Positions 2 to 14,935 of a stretch of 64,000 nt of DNA are shown here, in pieces. The stretch covers positions 186,001 through 250,000 of the forward strand of contig NZ_AULM01000001.1 of the NCBI RefSeq assembly GCF_000422285.1, given 5' to 3'. The translations under genes and the position numbers were made by a program. A model generated the notes under the pieces. It did no database searches and was not told the DNA's origin. It was given only the letters and a program-made list of their open reading frames with translations. The stretch's first letter is position 1; each line of letters opens with the position of its first letter. This DNA is from Desulfatiglans anilini DSM 4660. Its GTDB lineage: Bacteria; Desulfobacterota; DSM-4660; Desulfatiglandales; Desulfatiglandaceae.

Positions 2-1060
2 GCGGAGCGCTCGGTCTTGACCGATTTCATGGAGCGCGAAGAGCCCACGAATCAGGTCTATGACTACGGCGAGCCGCTCGAGGCGATGGAGGTCGTCTGG
101 CCGACGGGCGAGATCTTCCGCATGGGCTCGGCGAGCGTGAACGGCTACCCTGACAGCCCGTCGAAGGGGGCGAACCCCTCCGGCCCGGGCCTCGATTTTT
201 ACCGCTTCTTCCAGTGCGCGCAGGGGACGATGGGGGTCGTGACCTGGACCAACCTCAAGATGGAATCGATCCCGCGCAAAGACAAGGTGCTGTTCGCCCC
301 CGTCAAGGACCTGAACTATGCCATGGAGTTCCTGCACCGCATCCTGCCCAGGCGCATCGGTCAAGAGGTGCTGCTGCTAAACCAGGTCGATCTGGCGGCG
401 ATCCTGGCGGAGAACTGGCCTGCGGACTATGGGCGAATGAAGGCCGCGCTGCCTCCCTGGACCCTGATTCTGGTGGTGAGCGGGCTTCTGCGCCGGCCGG
501 AGGAAAAGATCGCCTACGAGATGAACTTCCTGGCCGAAGTGATCAAGAACGAGTTTTCGGAGATGCACCTGGGGGAGAATCTCCCCGGGTTCCCTGGCCT
601 GCGGCACAGGGTTCTGTCGGTTTTGAGGAACCCCTGGCCTGCGGATGTCCCGCACTGGCGGAATCAGGTCAAGGGGGCCTCGCAGAGCCTGTTCTTCCAT
701 ACACGGCCGCTCACGGCGAACCACTTTGTGGAGCGGATCCGGGAGATTGCAACCCGGCACGGGTATCCGGCGCAGGAGATCGGGATGTACATCCAGCCGA
801 TCGAACACAACCGGGCCTGCCGGCCGGAGTTCACCTTCTTCTATGATCCGGGGGACGATGCGGCCAAGGCCGCGGTGCGAAGCCTCTACCTCGATGCAGC
901 GGCGGCCTTCCTGAAGGAAGGCGCGGTGTTTACGCGGCCCTACGGAGAACTCGCGCCGATCGTCTACGAGCGGGCCGCCTCCTATGCCGCGAACCTCAAG
1001 CGGCTGAAGAAGGTGTTCGACCCGAACAACATCATGAATCCCGGGAACCTGTGCTTCTAA
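2..1060 (+). CDS. FAD-linked oxidase, 4-cresol dehydrogenase-like (5' end outside window)
   Basis: The frame is open to the left edge, so this is the C-terminal part (about 350 residues) of a longer protein; the TTG at 17 is not its start. It resembles the second half of vanillyl-alcohol-oxidase/4-cresol-dehydrogenase-type flavoenzymes: the end of the FAD-binding PCMH domain (EVVWPTGEIFRMGS, then a G-rich turn and GVVTW), a substrate cap domain, and the C-terminal signature KKVFDPNNIMNPGNLCF common to FAD-linked oxidases. It is paralogous to the oxidase at 2587. It sits 13 bp before an HdrD/GlcF-like Fe-S protein, which suggests a flavin dehydrogenase that hands electrons to iron-sulfur clusters. 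Substrate unknown; an aromatic side chain or hydroxy acid is plausible. Confidence 0.82.
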   Translation, partial: AERSVLTDFMEREEPTNQVYDYGEPLEAMEVVWPTGEIFRMGSASVNGYPDSPSKGANPSGPGLDFYRFFQCAQGTMGVVTWTNLKMESIPRKDKVLFAPVKDLNYAMEFLHRILPRRIGQEVLLLNQVDLAAILAENWPADYGRMKAALPPWTLILVVSGLLRRPEEKIAYEMNFLAEVIKNEFSEMHLGENLPGFPGLRHRVLSVLRNPWPADVPHWRNQVKGASQSLFFHTRPLTANHFVERIREIATRHGYPAQEIGMYIQPIEHNRACRPEFTFFYDPGDDAAKAAVRSLYLDAAAAFLKEGAVFTRPYGELAPIVYERAASYAANLKRLKKVFDPNNIMNPGNLCF

Positions 1061-1073
1061 GGAGGAGGGGACA

Positions 1074-2402
1074 ATGAGCAAGGAATCAGCTGTCAGATAT
1101 TACAAGCCGAGGGCGGAGTTCGCTCTGGACGTCACCGATATCCAGAACTTCGTCTACGATATGAGCCGTTGCATCAAGTGCAAGGGCTGCACGTGGGTGG
1201 ACCACACCTATATGCCGGGGACGCGGTTCATGACGCGCTGCCCGAGCGCGACGAAATTCGAGTTCGATGCCTACGGCGCCTACGGCAAGATGCGCATCGG
1301 CCACGCCATGGCCGAAGGGGTGCTCGACTGGAACGAGAAGGCGCTCGAGATCATGTATGCGTGCACGCTTTGCGGGGCCTGCGATGTAGGATGCAAGCGC
1401 AACCTTGACCTCGAGATCGAGCTGAGCCTGGAGGCCCTCCGGGTGAAGGCGGTCAAGGACGGGGTGGGACCGATGCCGGCCCACAAGAAGATCGCCGCCA
1501 ACATCGCCGAGACGCACAATTTTTTCAACGCGGCGCACGCGCAGCGCCGGGACTGGGTGGCGGCCTCCGGGGTGACGCCGGCCGAAAAGGCGGAATTGCT
1601 TTACTTTGTTGGGTGCAGCGCCTCCTACACCAACAAGGAGATCGCCCGGGCGACGGCGCGGATCCTGAAGGCGGCGGGGACGGACTTCATGCTGCTGCCG
1701 GACGAGTGGTGCTGCGGCAACACGCTGTTTTCGGTCGGGCTCTACGACGAGGCGAAGGCGCTGGCAGAGCGCAACGTGGAGGCTGTCCGCAGGACCGGGG
1801 CCAAGATCCTCCTGACGAGCTGCGCCGAGGGGTACCGCATGTGGAAGGTGGATTACCCGAAGCTCCTGGGAATCGCCACCGCGGACCTGGGCTTCGAGGT
1901 ACTCCACCTCGTCGAATACGTGGACGAGAAGATCAAGGACGGGGCTTTGAACCTGGACAAGCCTTTCGAGACGCGCATGAGCTATCACGATGCGTGCAGC
2001 CTGAGCCGCCTGAGCGAGCCCTGGACCCCTTACGAGGGCAAGCGCGGCTGGATGGGATGCGTCGAACCGCGCCTGAAGCGCCGCCGCGGGACGAACGGCG
2101 TCTACGCGCAACCGCGGGAGATCCTGCAGGCGATCCCCGGAGTGCAACTGGTCGAGATGCCCCGGATGCGCGAAAACGCCTTCTGCTGCGGCGCGGGGAG
2201 GGGGACAGGCGAGGCCTTCCCGGACTTCGCCCGCTGGGCTGCAGCCGAGCGGCTGGAAGAGGTGAAATACGTCGGCGCCGAGACCCTGGTCTCCACCTGC
2301 CCGTGGTGCAAGAACAACTTCAGCCGGGTGGTGAAGGAAGACGGACTGCCGGTGCAGGTCATGGATATCTCTGAAGTGATCTTGGCATCCATCGAGGGAT
2401 GA
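1074..2402 (+). CDS. HdrD/GlcF-like (Fe-S)-binding oxidoreductase subunit with two CCG domains
   Basis: 442 residues. The N-terminal half has two ferredoxin-type cysteine sets: CIKCKGC near residues 33-39 with a later CP, and CTLCGACDVGC near residues 97-107, suggesting two [4Fe-4S] clusters. The C-terminal half has two cysteine-rich CCG domains (CCGN near residue 213 and CCGAGRGTG near residue 371), as in heterodisulfide reductase HdrD, glycolate oxidase GlcF and lactate dehydrogenase LutA/LldE. No membrane segment is seen. A clear ribosome site (AAGGAGGAGG) precedes ATG 1074. Lying between two FAD oxidases, it probably forms the electron-transfer subunit of the same complex and passes electrons to a quinone or another carrier (inference). 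Confidence 0.85.
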   Translation: MSKESAVRYYKPRAEFALDVTDIQNFVYDMSRCIKCKGCTWVDHTYMPGTRFMTRCPSATKFEFDAYGAYGKMRIGHAMAEGVLDWNEKALEIMYACTLCGACDVGCKRNLDLEIELSLEALRVKAVKDGVGPMPAHKKIAANIAETHNFFNAAHAQRRDWVAASGVTPAEKAELLYFVGCSASYTNKEIARATARILKAAGTDFMLLPDEWCCGNTLFSVGLYDEAKALAERNVEAVRRTGAKILLTSCAEGYRMWKVDYPKLLGIATADLGFEVLHLVEYVDEKIKDGALNLDKPFETRMSYHDACSLSRLSEPWTPYEGKRGWMGCVEPRLKRRRGTNGVYAQPREILQAIPGVQLVEMPRMRENAFCCGAGRGTGEAFPDFARWAAAERLEEVKYVGAETLVSTCPWCKNNFSRVVKEDGLPVQVMDISEVILASIEG

Positions 2403-2586
2403 TCGATGCCTCACCCCGGGAAGGCGGGGCTTTCATCCGAAGGGGCCGCGGTTCAGAGAGGATCGGAGGGTACGGTCAGGAACCGCCGCCGCGCAGGGTG
2501 CCCGCAACCGCCGGACGCCGGGGCGAAGCCTTTGCAGGAATACTCTTGTTTAGACCAATGGACATCCAGGCTGAAGGAGGTAAATC
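2403..2586 (+). other. Intergenic spacer
   Basis: About 180 bp between the Fe-S protein and the second FAD oxidase. Small open frames here have no recognisable composition. The only site seen is a strong ribosome-binding sequence, AAGGAGG, at about 2575-2581 just before ATG 2587. Confidence 0.5.
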
Positions 2587-4209
2587 ATGCCAGCCATAAC
2601 GAAGGAAATCTACCAGGCGCTAAAAGCCGTCGTCGGGCCTGAATATATCTCGGACGATCCGGTGATCTGCGAAAGCTACCGGAGTGGACCGGGCGGATAC
2701 GAAAACGGTCTTGGCTATGAGCGGGTCATGACCAAGATTCCGGGCTGCATCATCATGCCGCGGACAACCGAAGAAGTGCAGCGCATCGTGCGGATATGCT
2801 ACCGCCACGACATCCCGTATGTCCCTTACAGCACCGGTTTCTATGGACCGCGCTCCCACCCGCATGTCGAGGATGCGCTCCTGATCGACCTCAAGCGCAT
2901 GAACGACTTCGTGCTGGACGAGAAGCATTTCTATGTCGAGGTGGGCCCGGGCATGGTCTATTCCCCCATCCAGGAGGAGTGCATGCGCCACGGGGCCTAT
3001 GTGGTGATCGGCGGGGGCGGGGCGCAGGCCTCGGCCATCGCGAACCTGATCGGGGACGGTTGGTCGCCGCTCAGCCACCGGATCGGACTGCCGCACCGCC
3101 GGATCCTAGGGACTGAGGTGGTGATGCCGGACGGCGAGATCCTGCGGATGGGCTCTCTGGCCACCGGGGACGACCCCTTCTGGGGCGAGGGTCCGGGCCC
3201 GGATCTGCGCGGGCTTCTGAGGGGCTACACGGGTCTGCGGGGCTGCCTTGGGATCGTGACGCGGATGGCGATCAAGACCCTTCCGTTCCAGCCCGAGCGG
3301 CTCGAGCCGACCGGAATTTCCCCCAACACCGCCCTGGCCCTTCCCGAGAAGCGCGTCAAGTGGATCAACTTCACCGTTCCCTCCAAGGATGCCCAGGTGA
3401 CGGCCATGCGGAACATCGGGCATGCCGAGATCGCGGGTGCGGTCACGAAGGTGCCGCTTTTCTGGCGGGCCATCGCCAAGGCCGAGTGCAAGGAGGAGTT
3501 CTGGGACATCTGGGGCAAGGAGAACGAGGAGAGCATCGCGAACTTCTTTATCGTGCGCGTGCTCCTGATCGGCTTCACCTCCGAAGAGCAGATGGAATAC
3601 GACGAACGGGTGCTGATGGACATCATGACGGAGGTCGGCGGGGTGGCCCGGCGGACCAAGCCCTCTGACGAGTCGTGGATCAAGAACGCCGACTCGGCCG
3701 GCATGTGGCTCATGTGCGGGGGGTATGTCTCGGTCGACTATGTCATCGAGTCCCTCACCCAGGCGCCCGACCACGGCCCGAGCTACGCGGAGCTGAAGAA
3801 GAAGTACACCCCGCCGTTGATGCCGGACTACGGCGACCCGGGCTGGTTCCAAAGCTTCGAACTCGGGCACCAGGGCTACTCGGAGTTCCTGATCTACTGG
3901 GATCAGGACGACGACACGGACCCGGTCGACCAGTTTTACGTCGACACCTCCAAGATGAACATCAAGAACCGGACCTATACGTCGCTTCTGGGCCCCCACC
4001 AGCCGCTGTACCTGACGGGTCCGAAGTATGGCCCCAATTACCATGAGTTCCTGCTGAAGGTCAAAAACGAGTTCGACCCGAAGTGGCGTTCGCACCCGCC
4101 GGTGCCCCTCGCCCATGACCTGTTCGTGGACCGCGCGCCCTGGATGCACGCCATGCGGGACTGGGATTCCCCCGGGGACATCCTGGGAGATTCGGGCGGC
4201 CGGGAGTAA
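2587..4209 (+). CDS. FAD-binding oxidase, 4-cresol dehydrogenase/vanillyl-alcohol oxidase-like
   Basis: 540 residues, about the family length (500-560). The N-terminal PCMH FAD-binding domain is visible: PRTTEEVQRIVRICYRHDIP, then VPYSTGFYG, FYVEVGPGMVY and VIGGGGAQASAIANLIGDG. The second lobe follows with GTEVVMPDGEILRMGS and GLRGCLGIVTRM. The C-terminal half is the cap domain. It is paralogous to the oxidase at 2-1060 and shares its cluster with the CCG Fe-S protein. The strong AAGGAGG site fixes ATG 2587. Family members oxidise para-hydroxylated aromatic side chains or similar substrates with FAD as hydride acceptor. Because no cytochrome c subunit gene is adjacent, the Fe-S protein is the likely acceptor (inference). 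Confidence 0.85.
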   Translation: MPAITKEIYQALKAVVGPEYISDDPVICESYRSGPGGYENGLGYERVMTKIPGCIIMPRTTEEVQRIVRICYRHDIPYVPYSTGFYGPRSHPHVEDALLIDLKRMNDFVLDEKHFYVEVGPGMVYSPIQEECMRHGAYVVIGGGGAQASAIANLIGDGWSPLSHRIGLPHRRILGTEVVMPDGEILRMGSLATGDDPFWGEGPGPDLRGLLRGYTGLRGCLGIVTRMAIKTLPFQPERLEPTGISPNTALALPEKRVKWINFTVPSKDAQVTAMRNIGHAEIAGAVTKVPLFWRAIAKAECKEEFWDIWGKENEESIANFFIVRVLLIGFTSEEQMEYDERVLMDIMTEVGGVARRTKPSDESWIKNADSAGMWLMCGGYVSVDYVIESLTQAPDHGPSYAELKKKYTPPLMPDYGDPGWFQSFELGHQGYSEFLIYWDQDDDTDPVDQFYVDTSKMNIKNRTYTSLLGPHQPLYLTGPKYGPNYHEFLLKVKNEFDPKWRSHPPVPLAHDLFVDRAPWMHAMRDWDSPGDILGDSGGRE

Positions 4210-4553: not shown

Positions 4554-5579
4554 ATGAGAAAAGGGTTTTGGATCTTGCTGGGGATCGTCGTCATGAGTAT
4601 CGGGTTTATCGCCGCCAACGCAACGGCCGCTGAATACAAGATGCGCCTCGCCCACATGACGCCGCTCATCGAGTCGCATGCCAAGGCCGGGGTGTGGATC
4701 AAGGACGAGATCGAAAAACGCTCGAAGGGCCGGATGGAGGTGCAGTATTTCCACAGCTTCCAACTGGGCAACACGATCGAGATTACCAAGAAGTGCCAGA
4801 TGGGGATGATCGAGGCCGCCTACACCAACGGGAATATCCTGCCCGATATGGCCCCGGAATTCGGGATCGGTTACTGCCCTTATGTCCTGGATTCCTATGA
4901 AAAATGGACCAAGTTCCTGGCGAATGACGAACTGCGGAACGAACTCTTCCAATATGGAGAAAAGCGCACCGGCCTCATGTTTGTCGACCAGATGTGGTTC
5001 GGCCGTTATGTCATCGCAAGCACCAAACCGATCAACACGTTCGAAGAAGTTGGAAAGCTGAAGTTCCGCTGTACGGAATCGCAGATCAATCTCGACTGGT
5101 GGAAGGCATGGGGGGTGAACGCCGACACCATGCCGTGGCCCGAGGTTTATCCGGCGTTGAACCAGAAGGTGATCGACGGGATCGAACAATCGAAAACGGC
5201 GATCCACTTTCTCAAGGTGGACGATCTGACCAAGTACATCCTGCACACCGACCATGTCGTCGGGACATGGTACATCGTCCTGAACAAAAAATGGTACGAC
5301 AAGCTGCCGGACGATCTGAAGACCATGGTGGTGCAAGTCATCCGTGAGGCGTCAGCCCAGGCGCGTGTGGCCCAACTCTACGACGAATGCAGGGTGATCG
5401 CTCCGATGAAGGAGAAAGGGGTCACCTTTACACCGCTGAAACCGGAGGAGGACGCCAAGTTCAGGCAGGCGGTGAAGGAGAAGGTCTGGCCGAAGTGGCG
5501 TGAACAGATCGGCGCCGAGTGGTTCGATAAGGTGGTGGAATTTGTCAAGGATGTGGAGAAGAGCCCTCCGGTGGAATAA
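4554..5579 (+). CDS. dctP: TRAP transporter substrate-binding protein, DctP family
   Basis: 341 residues with a signal peptide (positive MRKG, hydrophobic stretch, cleavage after about ANATAAE at residue 25), so periplasmic. The family core is present: the start of mature DctP (YKMRLAHMTPLIESHAKAG), HSFQLGNTIEITKKCQMG, and the region GKLKFRCTESQINLDWW carrying the conserved arginine that usually contacts a substrate carboxylate, followed by PWPEVYPALNQKVIDGIEQS. It heads a P-Q-M gene set with both membrane subunits downstream. Family knowledge predicts binding of an organic anion for sodium-driven import. The clustering with a CoA ligase suggests an aromatic or other carboxylic acid, but the ligand is not readable from sequence. 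Confidence 0.92.
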   Translation: MRKGFWILLGIVVMSIGFIAANATAAEYKMRLAHMTPLIESHAKAGVWIKDEIEKRSKGRMEVQYFHSFQLGNTIEITKKCQMGMIEAAYTNGNILPDMAPEFGIGYCPYVLDSYEKWTKFLANDELRNELFQYGEKRTGLMFVDQMWFGRYVIASTKPINTFEEVGKLKFRCTESQINLDWWKAWGVNADTMPWPEVYPALNQKVIDGIEQSKTAIHFLKVDDLTKYILHTDHVVGTWYIVLNKKWYDKLPDDLKTMVVQVIREASAQARVAQLYDECRVIAPMKEKGVTFTPLKPEEDAKFRQAVKEKVWPKWREQIGAEWFDKVVEFVKDVEKSPPVE

Positions 5580-5757: not shown

Positions 5758-6249
5758 GTGACACGGCAGATCGATAAATTCCTGACTGTGCTCGAAGAGT
5801 ATGGCATCGGCATGTGTATGCTCGTCTCGTTGGTCATACTTGTTGTCAATGTAATCCTTCGTTACCTCTTTCATGCATCCCTTTCCTGGCCGGCCGAGTT
5901 GTCCACCTATCTGATGATCCTTCTCGTATACCTCGGATCAAGCGCCGGCATCAAACACGACTCGGAGCTCAAGGTCGATTTCATCGTCGATATCTTCCCC
6001 CGCACCGGGAAATTCTTTGCCGTCTGGTTGAATATCGTCCGGCTGGCGGCCTGCGTTATCTTTTTCTGGGCGGGGATATCCGTGGTTCAGATGGAATACG
6101 CCTTCAGCAATGTCAGCCCTACCCTGCGCCTTCCGCTATGGATCCTCTTCGGCGTTTTGCCTTTCGCGGCGGTGCTTTTCGCTGTCAGAACGCTGTTGAG
6201 CTTTCGTGAAATCTTTGCGGACCGGCCTACCGGGAAACAAGAGGGCTAG
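5758..6249 (+). CDS. dctQ: TRAP transporter small permease, DctQ family
   Basis: 163 residues, GTG start chosen because GGGGAGG lies a few bases upstream. Four hydrophobic segments are visible (about residues 18-38, 44-62, 81-103, 121-143), the DctQ topology. The pattern VILRYLFHASLSWPAELSTYLMI fits the conserved NV.RY.f...l.w.eEl. motif. It is the small integral-membrane subunit that partners DctM in the cytoplasmic membrane. It follows the binding protein after a 178-bp gap and precedes DctM by 3 bp, so P, Q and M form one transport operon. Confidence 0.9.
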   Translation: MTRQIDKFLTVLEEYGIGMCMLVSLVILVVNVILRYLFHASLSWPAELSTYLMILLVYLGSSAGIKHDSELKVDFIVDIFPRTGKFFAVWLNIVRLAACVIFFWAGISVVQMEYAFSNVSPTLRLPLWILFGVLPFAAVLFAVRTLLSFREIFADRPTGKQEG

Positions 6250-6252
6250 ACG

Positions 6253-7536
6253 ATGCTGATGCTTGCTTTTGCCATTGGGTTATTGCTCATACTGATCTTT
6301 ATGCGGATCCCCGTCTTCCTGTCCCTTTTTCTGTCGGGGTTCGTCTGTTTCATGCTCTTTGCGCCGGTGCCGATGGCGGTCATCGGGCAGATCCTGATCA
6401 AGAAACTCGATAATTACTCTCTGATCGCCATCCCCTTTTTCATCTTCCTTGGCAATATCATGGTGCGCGGGGAGAGTGCGAAGCGGCTGGTGGACCTCGT
6501 TTTTGCGATCGTTTCCCCGTTGCGCGCGGGGCTGCCGATCGCGGCGGTCAATTCCTGCGGGCTGTTCGGTGCAATTTCAGGGTCGAGTATCTCCACCCTT
6601 GTCACCATCGGCGGGATCATTATGCCGGCCCTCGACGAAAACCGATATGAAAGGCGGTTTTCGGTCGGTATTCTCACGGCTTCCTCGATCCTGGGCATCA
6701 TCATCCCTCCAAGCGTTCCCATGATCATCTTTGCGATGATCGCCGGCACCTCCGTCAACCGGGTTTTCGTGGCGGGCATCCTTCCGGGTCTGCTCATCAT
6801 GGTGTTGCTTTCGCTGTACGCCTACGGCTACGGCCGGTTGAAGAAGCAGTCTGCGACGCAGTTCATGGGGTTGATGCACATGGGGCGGACCTTCTGGAGA
6901 GCGGGGTGGTCACTGTTGCTGCCCCTGATCCTTTATGTCGGGATCTACACCGGTGTTTTTACGGTGACTGAGGCGTCCGTCGTGGCGGCAGCCTATGCGA
7001 TCCTGATCGAAACGCTCCTTTACCGGCAGGTCTCCTTCAAAGAGATCTGGCGTCTAGCTGTCCAGTCCGGGATTCTGAGCGGCACGCTGGTCATTATCAT
7101 CGCCGGGGCCATGACCCTCGGAGAGTTCATCGTGCTGCAGGATCTTCCGAACGTGCTGGTCGACACGGCGATGAGATATATTTCGCAGCCCTGGATCTTC
7201 GTGTTCATGACGGTCGTTCTGGTACTCGTCATCGGCACGTTTCTGGACATTATCGGGGCCCTGGCGATCCTGACGCCGGTGATGCTGCCGCTTTCCAGGG
7301 CCTACGGCATGGATCCGGTGCACTTCGGCATCATTCTCTGTCTCGGGTTCGGGATCGGTTACATTACGCCGCCCCTCGGTTTGCTCCTGTACACTTCGGT
7401 CGCTGTGATGAAGGAAAAATTCACGTTCATCTGCCGGTCCATCATGCCGCCCCTGATCGTGTATGTGGTGATCTTGTTTCTGGTCGCGTACATTCCACAG
7501 TTGTCATTGTGGCTGCCGCATGTTCTCTATGATTGA
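6253..7536 (+). CDS. dctM: TRAP transporter large permease, DctM family
   Basis: 427 residues, the usual DctM length, with a dozen or so hydrophobic segments across the protein. Family landmarks are visible: AIPFFIFLGNIMVRG, the G-rich AVNSCGLFGAISGSS, SSILGIIIPPSVPMIIFA, and near the C-terminus GFGIGYITPPLGLLLY. This subunit is the sodium-coupled translocation channel. It starts 3 bp after dctQ and is certainly co-transcribed. The next 353 bp contain a repeat element and no gene. Confidence 0.93.
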   Translation: MLMLAFAIGLLLILIFMRIPVFLSLFLSGFVCFMLFAPVPMAVIGQILIKKLDNYSLIAIPFFIFLGNIMVRGESAKRLVDLVFAIVSPLRAGLPIAAVNSCGLFGAISGSSISTLVTIGGIIMPALDENRYERRFSVGILTASSILGIIIPPSVPMIIFAMIAGTSVNRVFVAGILPGLLIMVLLSLYAYGYGRLKKQSATQFMGLMHMGRTFWRAGWSLLLPLILYVGIYTGVFTVTEASVVAAAYAILIETLLYRQVSFKEIWRLAVQSGILSGTLVIIIAGAMTLGEFIVLQDLPNVLVDTAMRYISQPWIFVFMTVVLVLVIGTFLDIIGALAILTPVMLPLSRAYGMDPVHFGIILCLGFGIGYITPPLGLLLYTSVAVMKEKFTFICRSIMPPLIVYVVILFLVAYIPQLSLWLPHVLYD

Positions 7537-7889: not shown

Positions 7890-8423
7890 ATGATTGTTCA
7901 ATTTACGGAGAAGGAAGCCAACGGTATCCTCATGAAGCAGAAAAATCTTCTTGAAGGCAAGAAAATCCTTCTGGTTGACGACGAGCCGGATGTCTTGGAT
8001 GCATTGTCAGAGTTGCTCACGATGTGTCATCTCGTGACCGCAACGAGTTTCGAAGAGGCGAGAAAAAGACTTGAAACCGAATATTTCGATATCGCTATCC
8101 TCGATATCATGGGTGTGGACGGGTATGCCCTCCTTGACATCGCCATCGAGCGGGAGGTGATGCCGGTCATGCTGACTGCGCATGCATTGACTCCTGAGGA
8201 TGCCGCCCGCTCTTGGCGCGGCGGTGCCGCCTCGTATCTGCCGAAGGAAGAAATGGCGAACCTCGAGATCTTCCTGAATGATATCCTCGAGGCGAGAGAG
8301 AAGGGGCAAAGCCCCTGGTGGCGATGGTTCGAGAGATTAGGTTCCTACTATGACCGGAAGTTCGGGGTGGGCTGGACGGAGAAGGACAAGGACATCTGGA
8401 ACAAGATCAAATACGGAGTGTAA
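7890..8423 (+). CDS. Receiver-domain (CheY-like) protein without a visible output domain
   Basis: 177 residues; the first ATG is at 7890 but ATG 7932 (MKQKNLLEGKK) is an equally good start, and neither has a strong ribosome site. The core is a response-regulator receiver: acidic pair DDEPDVLDALSELL, phospho-acceptor Asp in IAILDIMGVDGYALL, a T in MLTAHA, and the Lys in SYLPKEEM. The last 50 or so residues (WWRWFERLGSYYDRKFGVGW...DIWNKIKYGV) are not a known DNA-binding domain. No histidine kinase is nearby. Lying between the TRAP operon and the CoA ligase, it may regulate this pathway through protein contacts (inference). Confidence 0.75.
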   Translation: MIVQFTEKEANGILMKQKNLLEGKKILLVDDEPDVLDALSELLTMCHLVTATSFEEARKRLETEYFDIAILDIMGVDGYALLDIAIEREVMPVMLTAHALTPEDAARSWRGGAASYLPKEEMANLEIFLNDILEAREKGQSPWWRWFERLGSYYDRKFGVGWTEKDKDIWNKIKYGV

Positions 8424-8536: not shown

Positions 8537-10093
8537 ATGGGCCTAGGAGATATTCTGAGGAGGAGCGCTGCAAAGTTCCCAAATAAGGACGCCCTGGTAT
8601 TCGGCGAGCACCGGTTGACCTACGGGGAATTGAATCGGCGGGTCAACCGCTTGACCGACAGTCTGCTGCGGACCGGTCTCCAGAAAGGCGACCGAGTCGC
8701 CCTGCTTTTGCACAACTGCCCCGAGTTCATCGAACTCTACTTCGCCTGTGCAAAGTCCGGCGGGATCCTCGTTCCGATCAACAACCTTCTTAAAGAGGGG
8801 GAACTGAACTATATTTTCGATTACATCAAGCCCCGGTTCGTCTTTTTTGACCCGGAGTTCATACCGTTGATCCAGGGCATCGGGCCCAGGGCGCCCTTTA
8901 TGGAGCACCCCGTGGTTCTGAATGACACGGGCCCCGGATTCAATGTCTACGAAAATTTCCTCGGAAGGGGTTCTGCTGGTGAACCTGACATGCCGATCTC
9001 CCGCGATGACATCTTCAGCATCTTCCTCACATCCGGAACGACGGGCCGTCCGAAGGGGGCGATGCGGACCCACCATCACAATTTGACGAATATCATGAGT
9101 TGTGCTATTGAACTTGGGTTAACCTACGATGACCGGGTCCTGCTTCTGTCTCCGTTCTATCACGTCTCCTTCGAGGATCAGATCCGGCATGTGTTGATGT
9201 CCAATACGATCGTGATCAAGAAGGAGGGCAGCTTCGATCCCCGGGAGGTCCTGGAGATCCTGGCTACGGAGCGCATCACCACCGCGCAGTTTGTCCCGAC
9301 CATGATCAACGCCATGCTCCAGGCCAAGGACATCGAGACTTACGATCTGGGGCATTTCAGGCTGATGCCCTATGCCGCCTCGCCCATGCCGGTCGAGCTG
9401 CTGAAGCGGGCCATGCAGCGCTTCAACTGCGGCTTTGTGCAGCTTTACGGTCAGACTGAAACGGGTCCGGCCACGACCGCGCTGAGACCGGAGGACCATG
9501 TGCTCGAAGGCAGCGAGGAGCAGATGGCCCGCCTGGCATCAGCCGGCCGCCCGATCGTCGACTGCGAGGTCCGGATCGTCGATGATGAGGGAGACGATGT
9601 CCCGGTCGGCGAGATCGGGGAGATCATCGTGCGGACGGAGGCCATGACGGTCGGCTATTGGGAACTGCCCGAAGAAACCGCCAAGACCATCCGGAACGGC
9701 TGGTTGTACACCGGTGATTACGGCCGGCGCGACGCGGAGGGCTATGTCTTCATCGTCGACCGGAAAAACGACATGATCATCAGCGGGGGCAAAAACATAT
9801 ACCCCCGGGAGGTGGAGGAGGTCATCTACGGCCACGAGGCGGTGCTCGAGGTGGCGGTGGTGGGGATCCCCGACGACTACTGGGGGGAATCGGTCAAGGC
9901 CCTGGTGGTGCTGAAGGAAGGGATGCATGCCACGGAGCGTGAGATCATCGACCTGTGCAAGCAGAAATTGGCCAGTTACAAGAAACCCAAGTCGGTGGAG
10001 TTCAGGTCCGATCTGCCGCGCAACCCGACAGGCAAACTTCTGAAGCGCAAGATCCGCGACGAATTCTGGCAGGGGCGCGAAAGACGGGTCTGA
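8537..10093 (+). CDS. AMP-forming acyl-CoA synthetase/ligase (ANL superfamily)
   Basis: 518 residues, full length. All ANL motifs are present in order: the P-loop-like SIFLTSGTTGRPKGAM (about residue 160), YGQTETGP, the Asp of YTGDYGRRDAEGYVFIVDRKNDMIISGGKNIY-type hinge region near residue 395, and the catalytic Lys in NPTGKLLKRKI near the C-terminus. The reaction is carboxylate + ATP + CoA to acyl-CoA + AMP + PPi in the cytoplasm. GGAGG at about 8523 sets ATG 8537. Next to the TRAP transporter and the Mo hydroxylase it is likely the activating step of the same catabolic route. Substrate class (aryl, cyclic or aliphatic acid) cannot be assigned from sequence. Confidence 0.9.
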   Translation: MGLGDILRRSAAKFPNKDALVFGEHRLTYGELNRRVNRLTDSLLRTGLQKGDRVALLLHNCPEFIELYFACAKSGGILVPINNLLKEGELNYIFDYIKPRFVFFDPEFIPLIQGIGPRAPFMEHPVVLNDTGPGFNVYENFLGRGSAGEPDMPISRDDIFSIFLTSGTTGRPKGAMRTHHHNLTNIMSCAIELGLTYDDRVLLLSPFYHVSFEDQIRHVLMSNTIVIKKEGSFDPREVLEILATERITTAQFVPTMINAMLQAKDIETYDLGHFRLMPYAASPMPVELLKRAMQRFNCGFVQLYGQTETGPATTALRPEDHVLEGSEEQMARLASAGRPIVDCEVRIVDDEGDDVPVGEIGEIIVRTEAMTVGYWELPEETAKTIRNGWLYTGDYGRRDAEGYVFIVDRKNDMIISGGKNIYPREVEEVIYGHEAVLEVAVVGIPDDYWGESVKALVVLKEGMHATEREIIDLCKQKLASYKKPKSVEFRSDLPRNPTGKLLKRKIRDEFWQGRERRV

Positions 10094-10141: not shown

Positions 10142-10639
10142 ATGAAACAGCAGATCGAATTGATCGTCAACGGGGATCGCTATTCCCTTTCGGTGGAGCC
10201 GTGGCGGACTCTGAACGAAGTCCTGAGGGACGATTTGAATCTGACCGGAACCAAACTCGGATGCGGGTCCGGGGACTGTGGCGCCTGCACCGTCATCGTC
10301 GACGGCCGCAGCGTCAGTTCCTGCCTGACCTTGGCGGTTTCGGTGAGCGGAAGGGACATTCGCACCGTGGAGGGGCTTGCACGGTCGGGTGAGGAACTGC
10401 ACGCGATCCAGGAGTCGTTCATCGAAAACGGAGCGATCCAGTGCGGTTTCTGCACGGCGGGGATGGAGATGTCGGCCTATTATCTCCTGAGCCACAACCC
10501 GGCGCCGAGCGAAGGCGAGATCCGCGCGGGCCTTTCGGGCAACCTGTGCCGCTGCACGGGCTACAACCAGATCGTGGAAGCCATCGGGGTGGCCGCCGAA
10601 AAGATGCGCAACCAATCCAAAGCGGGGGGCGAGCGATGA
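10142..10639 (+). CDS. Xanthine dehydrogenase-family [2Fe-2S] subunit
   Basis: 165 residues, typical of CoxS/HcrC/small-subunit proteins. The plant-type ferredoxin cluster motif C.S.DC.AC (CGSGDCGACTVIVDG, about residues 40-54) is followed by the second, four-helix [2Fe-2S] site: CGFCTAGM near 101 and CRCTGY near 136. It is the electron-transfer subunit of a three-subunit molybdenum hydroxylase with the two following genes. The stop overlaps the next start (ATGA at 10636-10639), which implies translational coupling. Confidence 0.93.
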   Translation: MKQQIELIVNGDRYSLSVEPWRTLNEVLRDDLNLTGTKLGCGSGDCGACTVIVDGRSVSSCLTLAVSVSGRDIRTVEGLARSGEELHAIQESFIENGAIQCGFCTAGMEMSAYYLLSHNPAPSEGEIRAGLSGNLCRCTGYNQIVEAIGVAAEKMRNQSKAGGER

Positions 10640-11511
10640 GAATGCCTAAATTCGAATACCATGCACCGGAAACCCTGGATGCCGCCCTGCAACTGCTGGC
10701 CGAAAAGGGCGCCGGCGCCCATCTCCTGGCGGGTGGGACGGACCTCGTGGTGAAGATGAACCACGGGATGTTGAAGCCGAAGGCCGTGATCGACCTGAAA
10801 GGGATCCCCGATTTGAACACGATCGAGGTCGATCCGCAAAAGGGCCTGACGATCGGGGCGACGGCGCTCCTCGCGGAGGTAGCGGCGCACCCGGACATCC
10901 TTCGCGACTACCCGGCTGTAGCCTATGCTGCCAACAAAACGGCCAACGTCCAGATCCGCAACATGGGCACGGTGGCCGGAAACCTCTGTAACGCCGCCCC
11001 GTCCGCCGACAATGCCCCGACCCTCGTGGCCATGGGTGGGGAGGCCGTCCTGGTGGGGCCGAAGGGTGAAAGAAGATTCCCCCTCGATCAGTTTTTCAAA
11101 GGCCCGGGGCAGACGGCGATGGAACCGGGCGAGATTATGACCGCCATTCATGTCCCGACCCCGCCGCCGGGAGCCGGTATATCCTACCAGCACATCTCCG
11201 CGCGCGGCAAGGTGGACATCTCGGCTGTTTGCGTCGGAGTGATGGTGACCATGGACGGGAACGTCTGCCGTGAGGCGGCCATTGTCCTCGGGGCGGTTGC
11301 CCCGATTCCCCTGCGGGCGCGGAAGGCGGAGGGAGTCCTTCGCGGGAAGGAATGGAGCGCCGAGCTGGCACGGGAAGCGGCTGCAGCGGCTGAGGCCGAG
11401 GCGCGTCCGATCACGGACGTCAGGGCGAGCGCCGAATACCGGAAACAGATGGTGGCGGTACTGACCCGCCGGGCCCTCGAAGAGGCCCGGGCGCGGGCTG
11501 CGAAACGGTAA
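10636..11511 (+). CDS. Xanthine dehydrogenase-family FAD-binding subunit
   Basis: 291 residues from ATG 10636, which overlaps the previous stop by ATGA. The CoxM/HcrB-type FAD domain is clear: AHLLAGGTDLVVKMN near residue 30, IGATALLAEVA, and NMGTVAGNLCNAAPSADNAP near residue 112. The C-terminal CO-dehydrogenase-flavoprotein domain follows. It lacks the cysteine-rich [4Fe-4S] insertion that marks 4-hydroxybenzoyl-CoA reductase beta subunits, so this complex is better called a general Mo hydroxylase/aldehyde oxidoreductase than HCR. It passes electrons from the 2Fe-2S subunit to its acceptor. Confidence 0.92.
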   Translation: MRMPKFEYHAPETLDAALQLLAEKGAGAHLLAGGTDLVVKMNHGMLKPKAVIDLKGIPDLNTIEVDPQKGLTIGATALLAEVAAHPDILRDYPAVAYAANKTANVQIRNMGTVAGNLCNAAPSADNAPTLVAMGGEAVLVGPKGERRFPLDQFFKGPGQTAMEPGEIMTAIHVPTPPPGAGISYQHISARGKVDISAVCVGVMVTMDGNVCREAAIVLGAVAPIPLRARKAEGVLRGKEWSAELAREAAAAAEAEARPITDVRASAEYRKQMVAVLTRRALEEARARAAKR

Positions 11512-11534: not shown

Positions 11535-13805
11535 ATGAAACGATTCAATATGGTTGGCAAGGATGTGCCGCGTAACGACGCCCGCGCCAAGGCGACGGGC
11601 ACCGCTACCTATACCGACGACATGAAACTGCCGGGCATGCTCTATGGAAAGATCCTGCGGAGCCCCCTGGCTCATGCCCGCATCGTCCGGATCGACACGA
11701 GCCGCGCGGCGGCGCTGCCGGGGGTCAAGTGCGTCATTACGGCCGAAGATACCCCCAAGATCAAATACGGCAACTGGCGGCTTTTTCCCGAAACCCAGGA
11801 CGAGTATCCCCTGGCGGTGGACAAGGTCCGCTTTATCGGGGACGAGGTGGCGGCCGTGGCCGCTGTCGACAAGGACACGGCCGAAGAGGCGCTGGAACTG
11901 ATCGAGGTGGAGTACGAGGAACTTCCGGCCGTCTTCGACGTCAACGAGGCCGCCGGGGAAGGGGCCCCCGTGCTGCACGACTATTGCACCAACAACATCA
12001 GCGTCAATCGCAAGATCCAGTACGGGGACGTGGAAAAGGCATTCGCCGAGGCGGACTACGTCCGGGAGGATACGTTCGATGTGCACGCGGTGAGCCACGC
12101 CTATCTCGAGCCTTGCTCAGCCCTGGCGCAGGTGGACCTGGACGGGCGGATCACGCTCTGGACCTCCACCCAGGTGCCTTATATCGTCCAGTGTTTGCTT
12201 GCCTCGACTCTCGGGATGCGTGAAAACGACATCCGGGTGATCAAGCCCTTCGTCGGCGGCGGCTTCGGGGGCAAGATGGAACTCAGGACCTGGGAGTTCT
12301 GCGCTGCGCTGATGGCCCGCAAGACCGGCCGCCCCGTGAAATTCACCCTGAGCCGGGAGGAGGAATTCCTGACCGGGCGGCGCCGCCACCCCATGCGGCT
12401 CCACTCGAAAGTGGCCTTCAAAAAAGACGGCACCCTGGTCGCGAAGGACCTGCGGATTCGGTTGGACGGCGGGGCCTACAACGCCATGGGGCCTACGGCC
12501 ACCTTCCTGTGCGGCAACTTCGGGGCCATGCTTTACCGCTACCCGAACTACCGGTTCCACGGGGAGCATGTCTACACCAACAAGCCGCCCGCCAGCGCCA
12601 TGCGAGGGTTCGGGGCGCCCCAATCGCTTTACGCGGCCGAGATCCAGATGAACCTGGCGGCCGAGGACCTGGGGATCGACCCGGTCGATATCCGCCTCAA
12701 GAACGCGCAGGTCAGCGGCGACAAGATCCCCGATGTGGCGACCATCTCGAGCTGCGGATTCATCGAGGCGATCGAGAAGGTCGCCGAGATGAGTGACTGG
12801 AGGAACAAACGCAAGAACCTCAAGCCGGGGCAGGGGATCGGGATCGGATGCTACAGCTTCATCTCGGGCGGTGTCTTCAACTGGTTCAACACCCAGTATC
12901 CGTTCTCGGCCGCCGAGGTCAGGGTCTTCTCGGACGGTACGGCCCACCTGTTGACCATGGCCTCGGACATCGGCCAGGGGTGCGACACGGCCCTCAAGCA
13001 GATCCTGGCGGAGGAGCTGGGCCTGAAGATGGAGGACATCCGCATCACCTCCGCCGATACGTCCATGACCCCGCAGGCCGATCTGGGGGCCTGGGGCAGC
13101 CGGGTGACCCTGATGGCGGGCAACGCGGTGATCGACGCGGCCCGCAAGATCAAGGCGGAGCTCTTCGGTGCGGTCTCGGCGAGGTTCAACCTGAACGTCA
13201 TCCATGAGATCGTGTGCCGGGACGGCAAGGTTTTCCCGCAGGGGCGGCCCGACCGCTTCATGACCTTCGGCGACGCGGTGGCGATGGTGCAGAAGGCGCG
13301 CCGCGGCGAACCTCTGGTGGCGCGGGGCTCCTACACGCCGCGCGGCAAGGGCTTGGTCACGCCGGCCTTCGGTTTCGGGGCTCAGATCGCGCAGGTGGAG
13401 GTCGATCAGGAGACGGGCCTGGTCGAGGTCAAGCAGATGTGGACCGCCCACGACTCCGGCACGGTCATCAATCCCCGTGCGGTCGAAGGGCAGTTGGCCG
13501 GATCGATCCAGATGGGGCTGGGCTATTCGCTCTCGGAGCAGTTCGTCATGAAGGACGGCAAGACCCTCAATCCCAACTTCCTGGACTACAAGATGCCCTC
13601 GGCCCTCGATATGCCGCCCAGTGCCCTGGCCCATATCGACACCTACGAGCCGGAGGGGCCCATGGGGGCCAAGGAATGCGGCGAGGGACTCGCCTCGCCC
13701 ACCGCCCCTGCGATTTCGGACGCCGTGTATCACGCCGTAGGTTATCGCTGCAAGGACCTGCCGATTACACCGGAAAAGATCCTGGCGGCCATCGGCAAAA
13801 AGTAG
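11535..13805 (+). CDS. Xanthine dehydrogenase-family molybdopterin-binding subunit
   Basis: 756 residues, normal for CoxL/HcrA-type large subunits. The N-terminal aldehyde-oxidase a/b hammerhead domain is followed by the Mo-cofactor domains: GGGFGGK near residue 241, the loop AMRGFGAPQ near 356, GQGCDTALKQILAEELGL near 476, and the catalytic Glu region GAKECGEGLASPTAP near 713. The active site would hydroxylate or dehydroxylate a substrate with water at a Mo=S centre. With the two upstream subunits it is a complete alpha-beta-gamma enzyme. Position directly after the CoA ligase suggests it may act on the acyl-CoA or a related heteroaromatic or aldehyde intermediate (inference). Confidence 0.93.
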   Translation: MKRFNMVGKDVPRNDARAKATGTATYTDDMKLPGMLYGKILRSPLAHARIVRIDTSRAAALPGVKCVITAEDTPKIKYGNWRLFPETQDEYPLAVDKVRFIGDEVAAVAAVDKDTAEEALELIEVEYEELPAVFDVNEAAGEGAPVLHDYCTNNISVNRKIQYGDVEKAFAEADYVREDTFDVHAVSHAYLEPCSALAQVDLDGRITLWTSTQVPYIVQCLLASTLGMRENDIRVIKPFVGGGFGGKMELRTWEFCAALMARKTGRPVKFTLSREEEFLTGRRRHPMRLHSKVAFKKDGTLVAKDLRIRLDGGAYNAMGPTATFLCGNFGAMLYRYPNYRFHGEHVYTNKPPASAMRGFGAPQSLYAAEIQMNLAAEDLGIDPVDIRLKNAQVSGDKIPDVATISSCGFIEAIEKVAEMSDWRNKRKNLKPGQGIGIGCYSFISGGVFNWFNTQYPFSAAEVRVFSDGTAHLLTMASDIGQGCDTALKQILAEELGLKMEDIRITSADTSMTPQADLGAWGSRVTLMAGNAVIDAARKIKAELFGAVSARFNLNVIHEIVCRDGKVFPQGRPDRFMTFGDAVAMVQKARRGEPLVARGSYTPRGKGLVTPAFGFGAQIAQVEVDQETGLVEVKQMWTAHDSGTVINPRAVEGQLAGSIQMGLGYSLSEQFVMKDGKTLNPNFLDYKMPSALDMPPSALAHIDTYEPEGPMGAKECGEGLASPTAPAISDAVYHAVGYRCKDLPITPEKILAAIGKK

Positions 13806-13937: not shown

Positions 13938-14161
13938 TGATCCCCTTGATATCGTTTGAAAATTATCTTTTCCGGTTCGGAGCTCCGGTCATGCCGGATC
14001 CCCTTTTCCGACGGGGCAAGAAGGAAGCCTTCCAACCTTCTGCCTCAGGGTTGGGATGAAGTGTGTTCGACCGGAGCAATCGGCGCCGGGCGTGCGATTT
14101 CAAGGTAATCCTCGTCTCCCGCACGCTTTGGATTCCGGGGGGTGCTCGCAGGAGGATTGGA

Positions 14162-14935
14162 ATGCATCAGGATCGCGATATCCATACCAAAGAGGTCGGC
14201 CTCGCTGAGCTGATCGGGATGCTTTCAAAAAACGAGCTTCTGATCCCTTCGTTTCAACGGGAGTTCGTGTGGGAGCCGCAGGAGATCATCCAACTCTGGG
14301 ACAGTCTCTACCGGTTCTACCCGATCGGGAGCCTGCTCTGCTGGGAGACGCACATCTCCCTGCGCGTCCACCGAAAGATCGGCGGATACCTGCTGCCGGA
14401 GAACGGCGCCACCGGGCAGGGGGGGCCCAGGCACTACATCCTCGACGGTCAGCAGCGCGCCACGGCGATCATGATCGCCGTGCTCGGCGGGGAGGGGAGG
14501 TTGCGCGGAAGACGGGAGCAGCCGTGCCTTGCACATGCCCTTTATTTCGACGCGGTCGGGGGCACCTTCTTTTTCGGTTACGAACTGAAGCGCAGGAGGC
14601 GGAAGCGCGACCCGGCCTTTCTGGTCCTGTTGAAGGAGATCATGACGGACGCTGCGAGGGTGCGGCGTGCCATATCAGAGGCGGAGGGCTGCGATGAAAC
14701 GGTCCTTTCGAATTTGGACCGGCTGGCACGGGTGTTCAGCGCCTACCGGATCCCCGTCATCTGGATCAGAGGCTTCGACATCCCGGCCGTACGGGACATC
14801 TTCATGCGCATCAACCAGGAGGGGCAGGACCTCAAACCGATGGACATCATGATCGCGAAGACCTTCCAGGACTACGAGTACCTGGTGGAGGATGACCTCT
14901 GGACGCCCTCCGAGGCTCCGCCCGACGCCCACTGA
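14162..14935 (+). CDS. Short DUF262 (GmrSD N-terminal-like) protein
   Basis: 257 residues from ATG 14162, chosen because GGAGGATT lies just upstream; the open frame extends to 14063. It carries the DUF262/ParB-like nuclease fold motifs: LLIPSFQREFVWEPQEIIQLWDSL near residue 23, YILDGQQRATAI near 93, and IFMRINQEGQDLKPMDIMIAK near 216. In GmrSD-type restriction systems DUF262 hydrolyses NTP and is followed by a DUF1524 HNH nuclease. Here the protein stops soon after the core and no DUF1524 follows. It may be a stand-alone DUF262 protein or a truncated remnant. Its stop is 31 bp from the convergent minus-strand gene. Confidence 0.78.
   Translation: MHQDRDIHTKEVGLAELIGMLSKNELLIPSFQREFVWEPQEIIQLWDSLYRFYPIGSLLCWETHISLRVHRKIGGYLLPENGATGQGGPRHYILDGQQRATAIMIAVLGGEGRLRGRREQPCLAHALYFDAVGGTFFFGYELKRRRRKRDPAFLVLLKEIMTDAARVRRAISEAEGCDETVLSNLDRLARVFSAYRIPVIWIRGFDIPAVRDIFMRINQEGQDLKPMDIMIAKTFQDYEYLVEDDLWTPSEAPPDAH

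Follow-up and report, generated by a model that had tools for sequence, protein, structure and literature searches.

A predicted two-flavoprotein iron–sulfur complex of Desulfatiglans anilini: a widespread branch of the family that includes the benzene-degrader complex

How benzene is activated under anaerobic conditions has been an open question for decades. The leading candidate as of 2026 is a complex of the same kind as that encoded at the very beginning of the stretch of DNA analysed here, a window of 64,000 nucleotides from Desulfatiglans anilini DSM 4660 (genome coordinates C1:186001-250000). We find that the three-gene unit in the window is real and non-trivial, and that it is a branch of the protein family described in 2026.

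The three genes, called A, B and C in the following, are arranged head to tail, all on the + strand. Gene A (2..1060) codes for a FAD oxidoreductase of the VAO/PCMH superfamily and is open at the window edge, with the C-terminal 352 of its 485 residues inside the window; the full gene (L002:9603-11060) starts at C1:185603, 398 bp before the window. Its Pfam domains are FAD_binding_4 (2.5e-21) and FAD-oxidase_C (2e-05). Gene B (1074..2402) codes for an Fe-S protein of the HdrD/GlcF type with 442 residues, having CCG (3.7e-28, two stretches) and Fer4_8 (8.1e-09) domains. Gene C (2587..4209) gives a flavoprotein of 540 residues, in which a FAD_binding_4 domain (1.2e-20) is followed by a highly conserved C-terminal part that has no Pfam match. 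The original prediction of two FAD oxidases flanking a CCG-type Fe-S protein is thus confirmed at these positions for all three reading frames and their domains. A and C are diverged paralogues of each other (profile-profile comparison, 99.9% probability, 24% identity), and both are expected from the domain to bind flavin. Membrane or hydrophobic segments are absent from A, B and C, the maximum Kyte-Doolittle values being 1.2-1.3 as compared to 2.7 for the transporter subunit DctM encoded downstream. One residue from its C-terminus, A carries a nearly invariant cysteine, C484 (NPGNLCF).

A scan of contigs with B yielded 72 loci, found in Desulfobacterota, Chloroflexota, Acidobacteriota, Spirochaetota and Bacillota, the last including gut Clostridia. 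Order and strand of A-B-C are kept in 61 of the 67 loci that belong to the window's branch, and the remaining six end at contig ends, which argues against a chance array. The median intergenic gaps in the branch are 10 and 11.5 bp, while the B-C gap in the window, 184 bp, is the largest among the branch loci. C is the most conserved of the three proteins, with a mean identity within the branch of 74%, as compared to 66% for B and 63% for A. Their pairwise distances correlate with each other at 0.79-0.87 over 22 loci, while the correlation with the neighbouring Mo subunit at the same loci is 0.58-0.68. Since this control itself shares much species history with A, B and C, the excess suggests that the three genes have been inherited as a unit. 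In a survey of the phylum, B-like proteins (E <= 1e-40) were found in 216 of 395 sampled genomes, often in several copies, and not every one of these homologues belongs to a full A-B-C trio. By this count, the kind of complex is no rarity of benzene specialists. The hosts of the window's branch include the cultured NaphS2 and Desulfonema magnum, and also a Desulfosporosinus genome.

The ligand pattern of B is that of the HdrD/GlcF-type CCG proteins, with two [4Fe-4S] cubane motifs (C33/36/39/56 and C97/100/103/107) and two CCG domains (C181/213/214/250 and C308/371/372/409/412). In the first CCG domain, a glycine, G253, is found where the fifth cysteine is expected. This position is Gly in 44 of the 68 branch members, the window copy included, and position 97 in the second cubane motif is Asp in 26 of the 68; in contrast, both positions are Cys in each of the 27 sequences from outside the branch. 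These replacements, Cys-to-Asp in the second cubane and Cys-to-Gly in CCG1, distinguish the branch from the HdrD, TfrB and LdhH-type proteins, with which B otherwise shares the two cubane motifs and two CCG domains. Among the NCBIfam models, TfrB gives the best score for B, 156.5 bits against a cut-off of 385, and B falls under all equivalog cut-offs.

The two flavoproteins were placed in a FAD-domain tree with PchF, eugenol oxidase, a VAO, GlcD, GlcE, LctD and LDHD as references, in line with the check proposed in the original prediction. The clades of A (support 100/99), C (99/99) and VAO/PCMH (100/100) are separate, and the side with A and C is split from GlcD/LctD/LDHD with 100/99 support, a result that holds after removal of long branches, GlcE included. 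The references are aligned fragments from PDB searches together with E. coli GlcD and GlcE, and they fix neither the root nor a sister relationship between A and C. Judged by this tree, A and C are two separate paralogous clades of old origin, located on the VAO/PCMH side and apart from GlcD. The predicted structure of A (pLDDT 87) agrees with this, with query-normalised TM scores of 0.79-0.84 to VAO/PCMH enzymes and 0.75-0.77 to D-lactate dehydrogenase. The FAD_binding_4 (PCMH-type) domain and VAO fold are present in A, and less certain in C. With both flavoproteins on the VAO/PCMH side of the tree, away from GlcD, and with an invariant three-gene unit built around an HdrD/GlcF-type hub, the suggested GlcDEF-like complex made of VAO-type flavoproteins is supported at the level of sequence.

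Downstream of C, and likewise on the + strand, the genomic context consists of the TRAP genes for the substrate-binding protein DctP (4554..5579, present in the same-genus genome G313), the small permease DctQ (5758..6249) and the large permease DctM (6253..7536), followed by a response-regulator receiver protein (7890..8423) and an AMP-forming acyl/aryl-CoA ligase (8537..10093). Next to these are the [2Fe-2S] (10142..10639), FAD (10636..11511) and Mo (11535..13805) subunits of an XDH-type Mo hydroxylase. Upstream of the trio there are a divergent MarR regulator, HyuA/HyuB, a hydroxyacyl-CoA dehydrogenase fusion and a second Mo subunit. This neighbourhood is kept in a same-genus genome (L083) across the stretch compared. 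Across the branch, the recurrent neighbours are the Mo hydroxylase (25 of 68 loci), MarR (13/68) and the CoA ligase (11/68). Eleven Mo subunit genes are present in the 4.67 Mb of the own genome, i.e. one per 424 kb, and two of them lie within ca 10 kb of the trio; the 25 loci, in 555 kb of flanks, correspond to a roughly twenty-fold excess over the density in the window's own genome, which is the sole baseline. TRAP genes like those of the window, on the other hand, show no recurrence across the 68 branch loci and pass the threshold in the window's own lineage alone. Of the proposal that TRAP system, CoA ligase and Mo hydroxylase form one route with the trio, a statistical link with the Mo hydroxylase is supported, and the transporter as a part of the system is not. 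The closest NCBIfam model to the Mo subunit is 4-hydroxybenzoyl-CoA reductase, yet the score of 762.6 bits is below the cut-off of 994.55. This assignment was rejected, as the FAD subunit (10636-11511) lacks the four-Cys [4Fe-4S] insertion and has only scattered cysteines.

We consider it reasonably probable that the three proteins together form a single soluble flavo-iron-sulfur dehydrogenase, independent of oxygen and of GlcDEF-like architecture. The complex most likely acts on an organic or aromatic acid and releases the electrons via its Fe-S clusters; substrate and acceptor are here read from the neighbourhood, which differs between lineages. In the mechanism we propose, the two paralogous VAO/PCMH-side flavoproteins would dock onto the HdrD/GlcF-type Fe-S protein. 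One flavin would take a hydride from the organic substrate, probably an aromatic or alicyclic acid, and the electrons would then reach the second flavin by way of the cubane and CCG clusters and leave the complex for ETF, ferredoxin or a quinone-linked acceptor. The XDH-type Mo hydroxylase and the CoA ligase encoded nearby would serve earlier or later steps of the same pathway.

One alternative is that the complex also has the function of GlcDEF, that is, it would be a 2-hydroxyacid dehydrogenase for glycolate, lactate or an aryl 2-hydroxyacid, with electrons going to menaquinone. E. coli GlcDEF has the same subunit plan, two flavoproteins and one two-CCG Fe-S protein, with 21% identity between B and GlcF and 26% over ca 200 residues between A or C and GlcD. 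The best single PDB profile match of A is mitochondrial D-lactate dehydrogenase, and the profile of A scores almost the same with D-lactate dehydrogenase (140.6 bits) as with PchF (134.4 bits), the PchF match being full-length. D-lactate dehydrogenase is also the best fold match of C, whose model is poor (pLDDT 69), and C retains within its own branch one His that aligns, with some uncertainty, to the metal motif. However, the HAGDGNLH and EHG motifs, which form the metal site of the hydroxyacid enzymes, are absent from A in the alignment, and both flavoproteins group apart from GlcD/LctD/LDHD. The NCBIfam glcD scores are only 28.5 (A, window part) and 62.5 (C), as compared to a cut-off of 567.9, and neither A nor C is truncated like GlcE. 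We therefore regard a 2-hydroxyacid dehydrogenase as unlikely.

The relation to the benzene degraders brings in a second alternative. Toth et al. reported in 2026 that the 'Magic' proteins 24-26 of Ca. Anaerobenzenivorax ORM2, which are a FAD oxidoreductase, an Fe-S protein and a FAD oxidoreductase, exceed all others in abundance in a benzene-degrading culture, and presented an AlphaFold 3 model of them that is GlcDEF-like (PMC13101534). In the same year, Musat et al. found the equivalent trio BzS1_12970/80/90 to make up about one fifth of the BzS1 proteome (PMC13416013). With this heterotrimer already published for benzene degraders (PMC13101534, PMC13416013), the earlier description of the system as possibly undescribed has to be given up. 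The window has the same FAD - CCG Fe-S - FAD order on one strand as the benzene-type heterotrimer of ORM2, BzS1 and BPL; ORM2 and BzS1 are likewise strict anaerobes, and their Fe-S protein is also reported to be without some of the expected cysteines.

Syntenic homologues with 23-42% identity to the benzene trio are known from NaphS2 and Ds. variabilis, and these are likely to have another function, since neither strain uses benzene (PMC13416013). The main text of the paper on naphthalene-dependent expression in NaphS2 mentions neither FAD nor heterodisulfide (PMC2988823). A, B and C of the window are 77, 80 and 90% identical to the NaphS2 locus, and B occurs in NaphS2 in just one high-scoring copy. 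Because of this identity to the only copy, the window trio is assigned by transitivity to the NaphS2-type branch. Its identity to the benzene core cluster, judged indirectly through the NaphS2 copy with its reported 23-42%, is below the high values of 63-89%. The surroundings differ as well: MaoC and the paired class III CoA-transferases are absent beside the window trio, where instead the TRAP, response regulator, CoA ligase, Mo hydroxylase and HyuAB genes are found. Three further loci with ca 38-41% identity in B (L071-L073) were considered as candidates for the benzene type, and were discarded as their neighbours did not match. The window complex itself is probably not a benzene enzyme. The trio represents a distinct and very widespread branch of the family, with the abundant complex of the benzene degraders forming the other one.

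It is nevertheless conceivable that the branch performs flavin-based aromatic activation like that proposed for benzene, with another unactivated ring as substrate, coupled to a CoA co-substrate in a radical or redox-neutral reaction. The match of the trio and its order to ORM2 24-26 and BzS1_12970/80/90 would fit this, as would the class III CoA-transferases located 5' of ABC at some loci, two directly 5' of A at the Acidobacteria-type L034 and L043 and one at L032, which is on a short contig. At these loci, they are accompanied by hydroxyacyl-CoA dehydrogenase and thiolase, like in the benzene clusters. On the other hand, the benzene mechanism is itself unproven, no CoA-transferase III adjoins ABC in the window, and the branch carriers NaphS2 and Ds. 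variabilis cannot use benzene (PMC13416013). We assign a low probability to such an activation, and prefer the dehydrogenase, for which known chemistry is enough.

As a third possibility, which we consider quite improbable, the complex could be a dehydrogenase of 4-alkylphenols or p-cresol that has the Fe-S protein in place of the PCMH cytochrome c. The hosts do degrade aromatics, and A and C are on the VAO/PCMH side by FAD-domain tree and fold, so that A shares both with PchF, eugenol oxidase and vanillyl-alcohol oxidase. In PchF, Tyr384 holds the covalent FAD and Tyr95 and Tyr473 bind the phenol. None of these is conserved in the aligned A, while the conserved R445 of A (motif FTRPYG) corresponds in the alignment to Arg474 of PchF. 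No cytochrome c partner is present among the Pfam-scanned neighbours, the operon having an Fe-S protein instead. Of the original label, 4-cresol-dehydrogenase-like, the fold and the FAD domain stand, but the active site does not. As both the PchF tyrosines and the HAGDGNLH/EHG motifs are missing, A fits neither the standard alkylphenol enzymes nor the standard hydroxyacid dehydrogenases that depend on a metal. Finally, a flavin-based electron-bifurcating or confurcating complex, with A and C serving acceptors of different potential, would be compatible with two flavins and up to four Fe-S clusters, with the suggestion made for the benzene homologues (PMC13416013) and with the EtfAB (ferredoxin domain) and acyl-CoA dehydrogenase genes ca 20-25 kb upstream, but no NAD(P)-binding or ferredoxin-docking domain was found in A, B or C and Etf genes are not conserved neighbours, which makes it very doubtful.

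Returning to the dehydrogenase that we favour, the NaphS2-type branch is the more tractable one, and its substrate would establish the base chemistry, ordinary dehydrogenation or radical activation, for testing the benzene claim. A more far-reaching idea, which we put forward as rather unlikely, is that this branch is a general class of anaerobic C-H activating flavoenzymes. In many phyla, two flavins and an Fe-S hub, together with a water-dependent Mo hydroxylase, would functionalise unactivated aromatic or alicyclic acids, and the benzene-activating complex would have diverged from this class.

A few further observations concern the surroundings and the other copies. After the Mo hydroxylase, the window contains a lone GmrSD_N/DUF262 protein (14063-14935). 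As GmrSD_N-type proteins are also found near A-B-C in L004 (NaphS2), L006 and L010, they may be recurrent neighbours. The region upstream (L003, C1:160001-176000) has a class III CoA-transferase, ca 24 kb from the trio, EtfB, the ferredoxin-fused EtfA and the acyl-CoA dehydrogenase, and also B12-binding and methylmalonyl-CoA-mutase-type subunits, another TRAP set, a PaaK-like CoA ligase and Mo hydroxylase subunits; it has the appearance of an island of catabolic genes for organic or aromatic acids.

The own genome has three A-B-C sets, the one in the window and those on C52 (L080) and C5 (L081). In the B tree, the window falls within the 68-row branch, while L080 lies immediately next to this branch, outside of it, and L081 belongs to a different clade. 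One of the two additional sets adjoins a CoA ligase, and the other, the C5 copy, a Mo subunit. Related A-B pairs at L093 and L094, where the C subunit was not detected, are possibly simpler dehydrogenases. In a genome of the same family (L082, G132:C3:262000-281000), two complete A-B-C sets are found in tandem.
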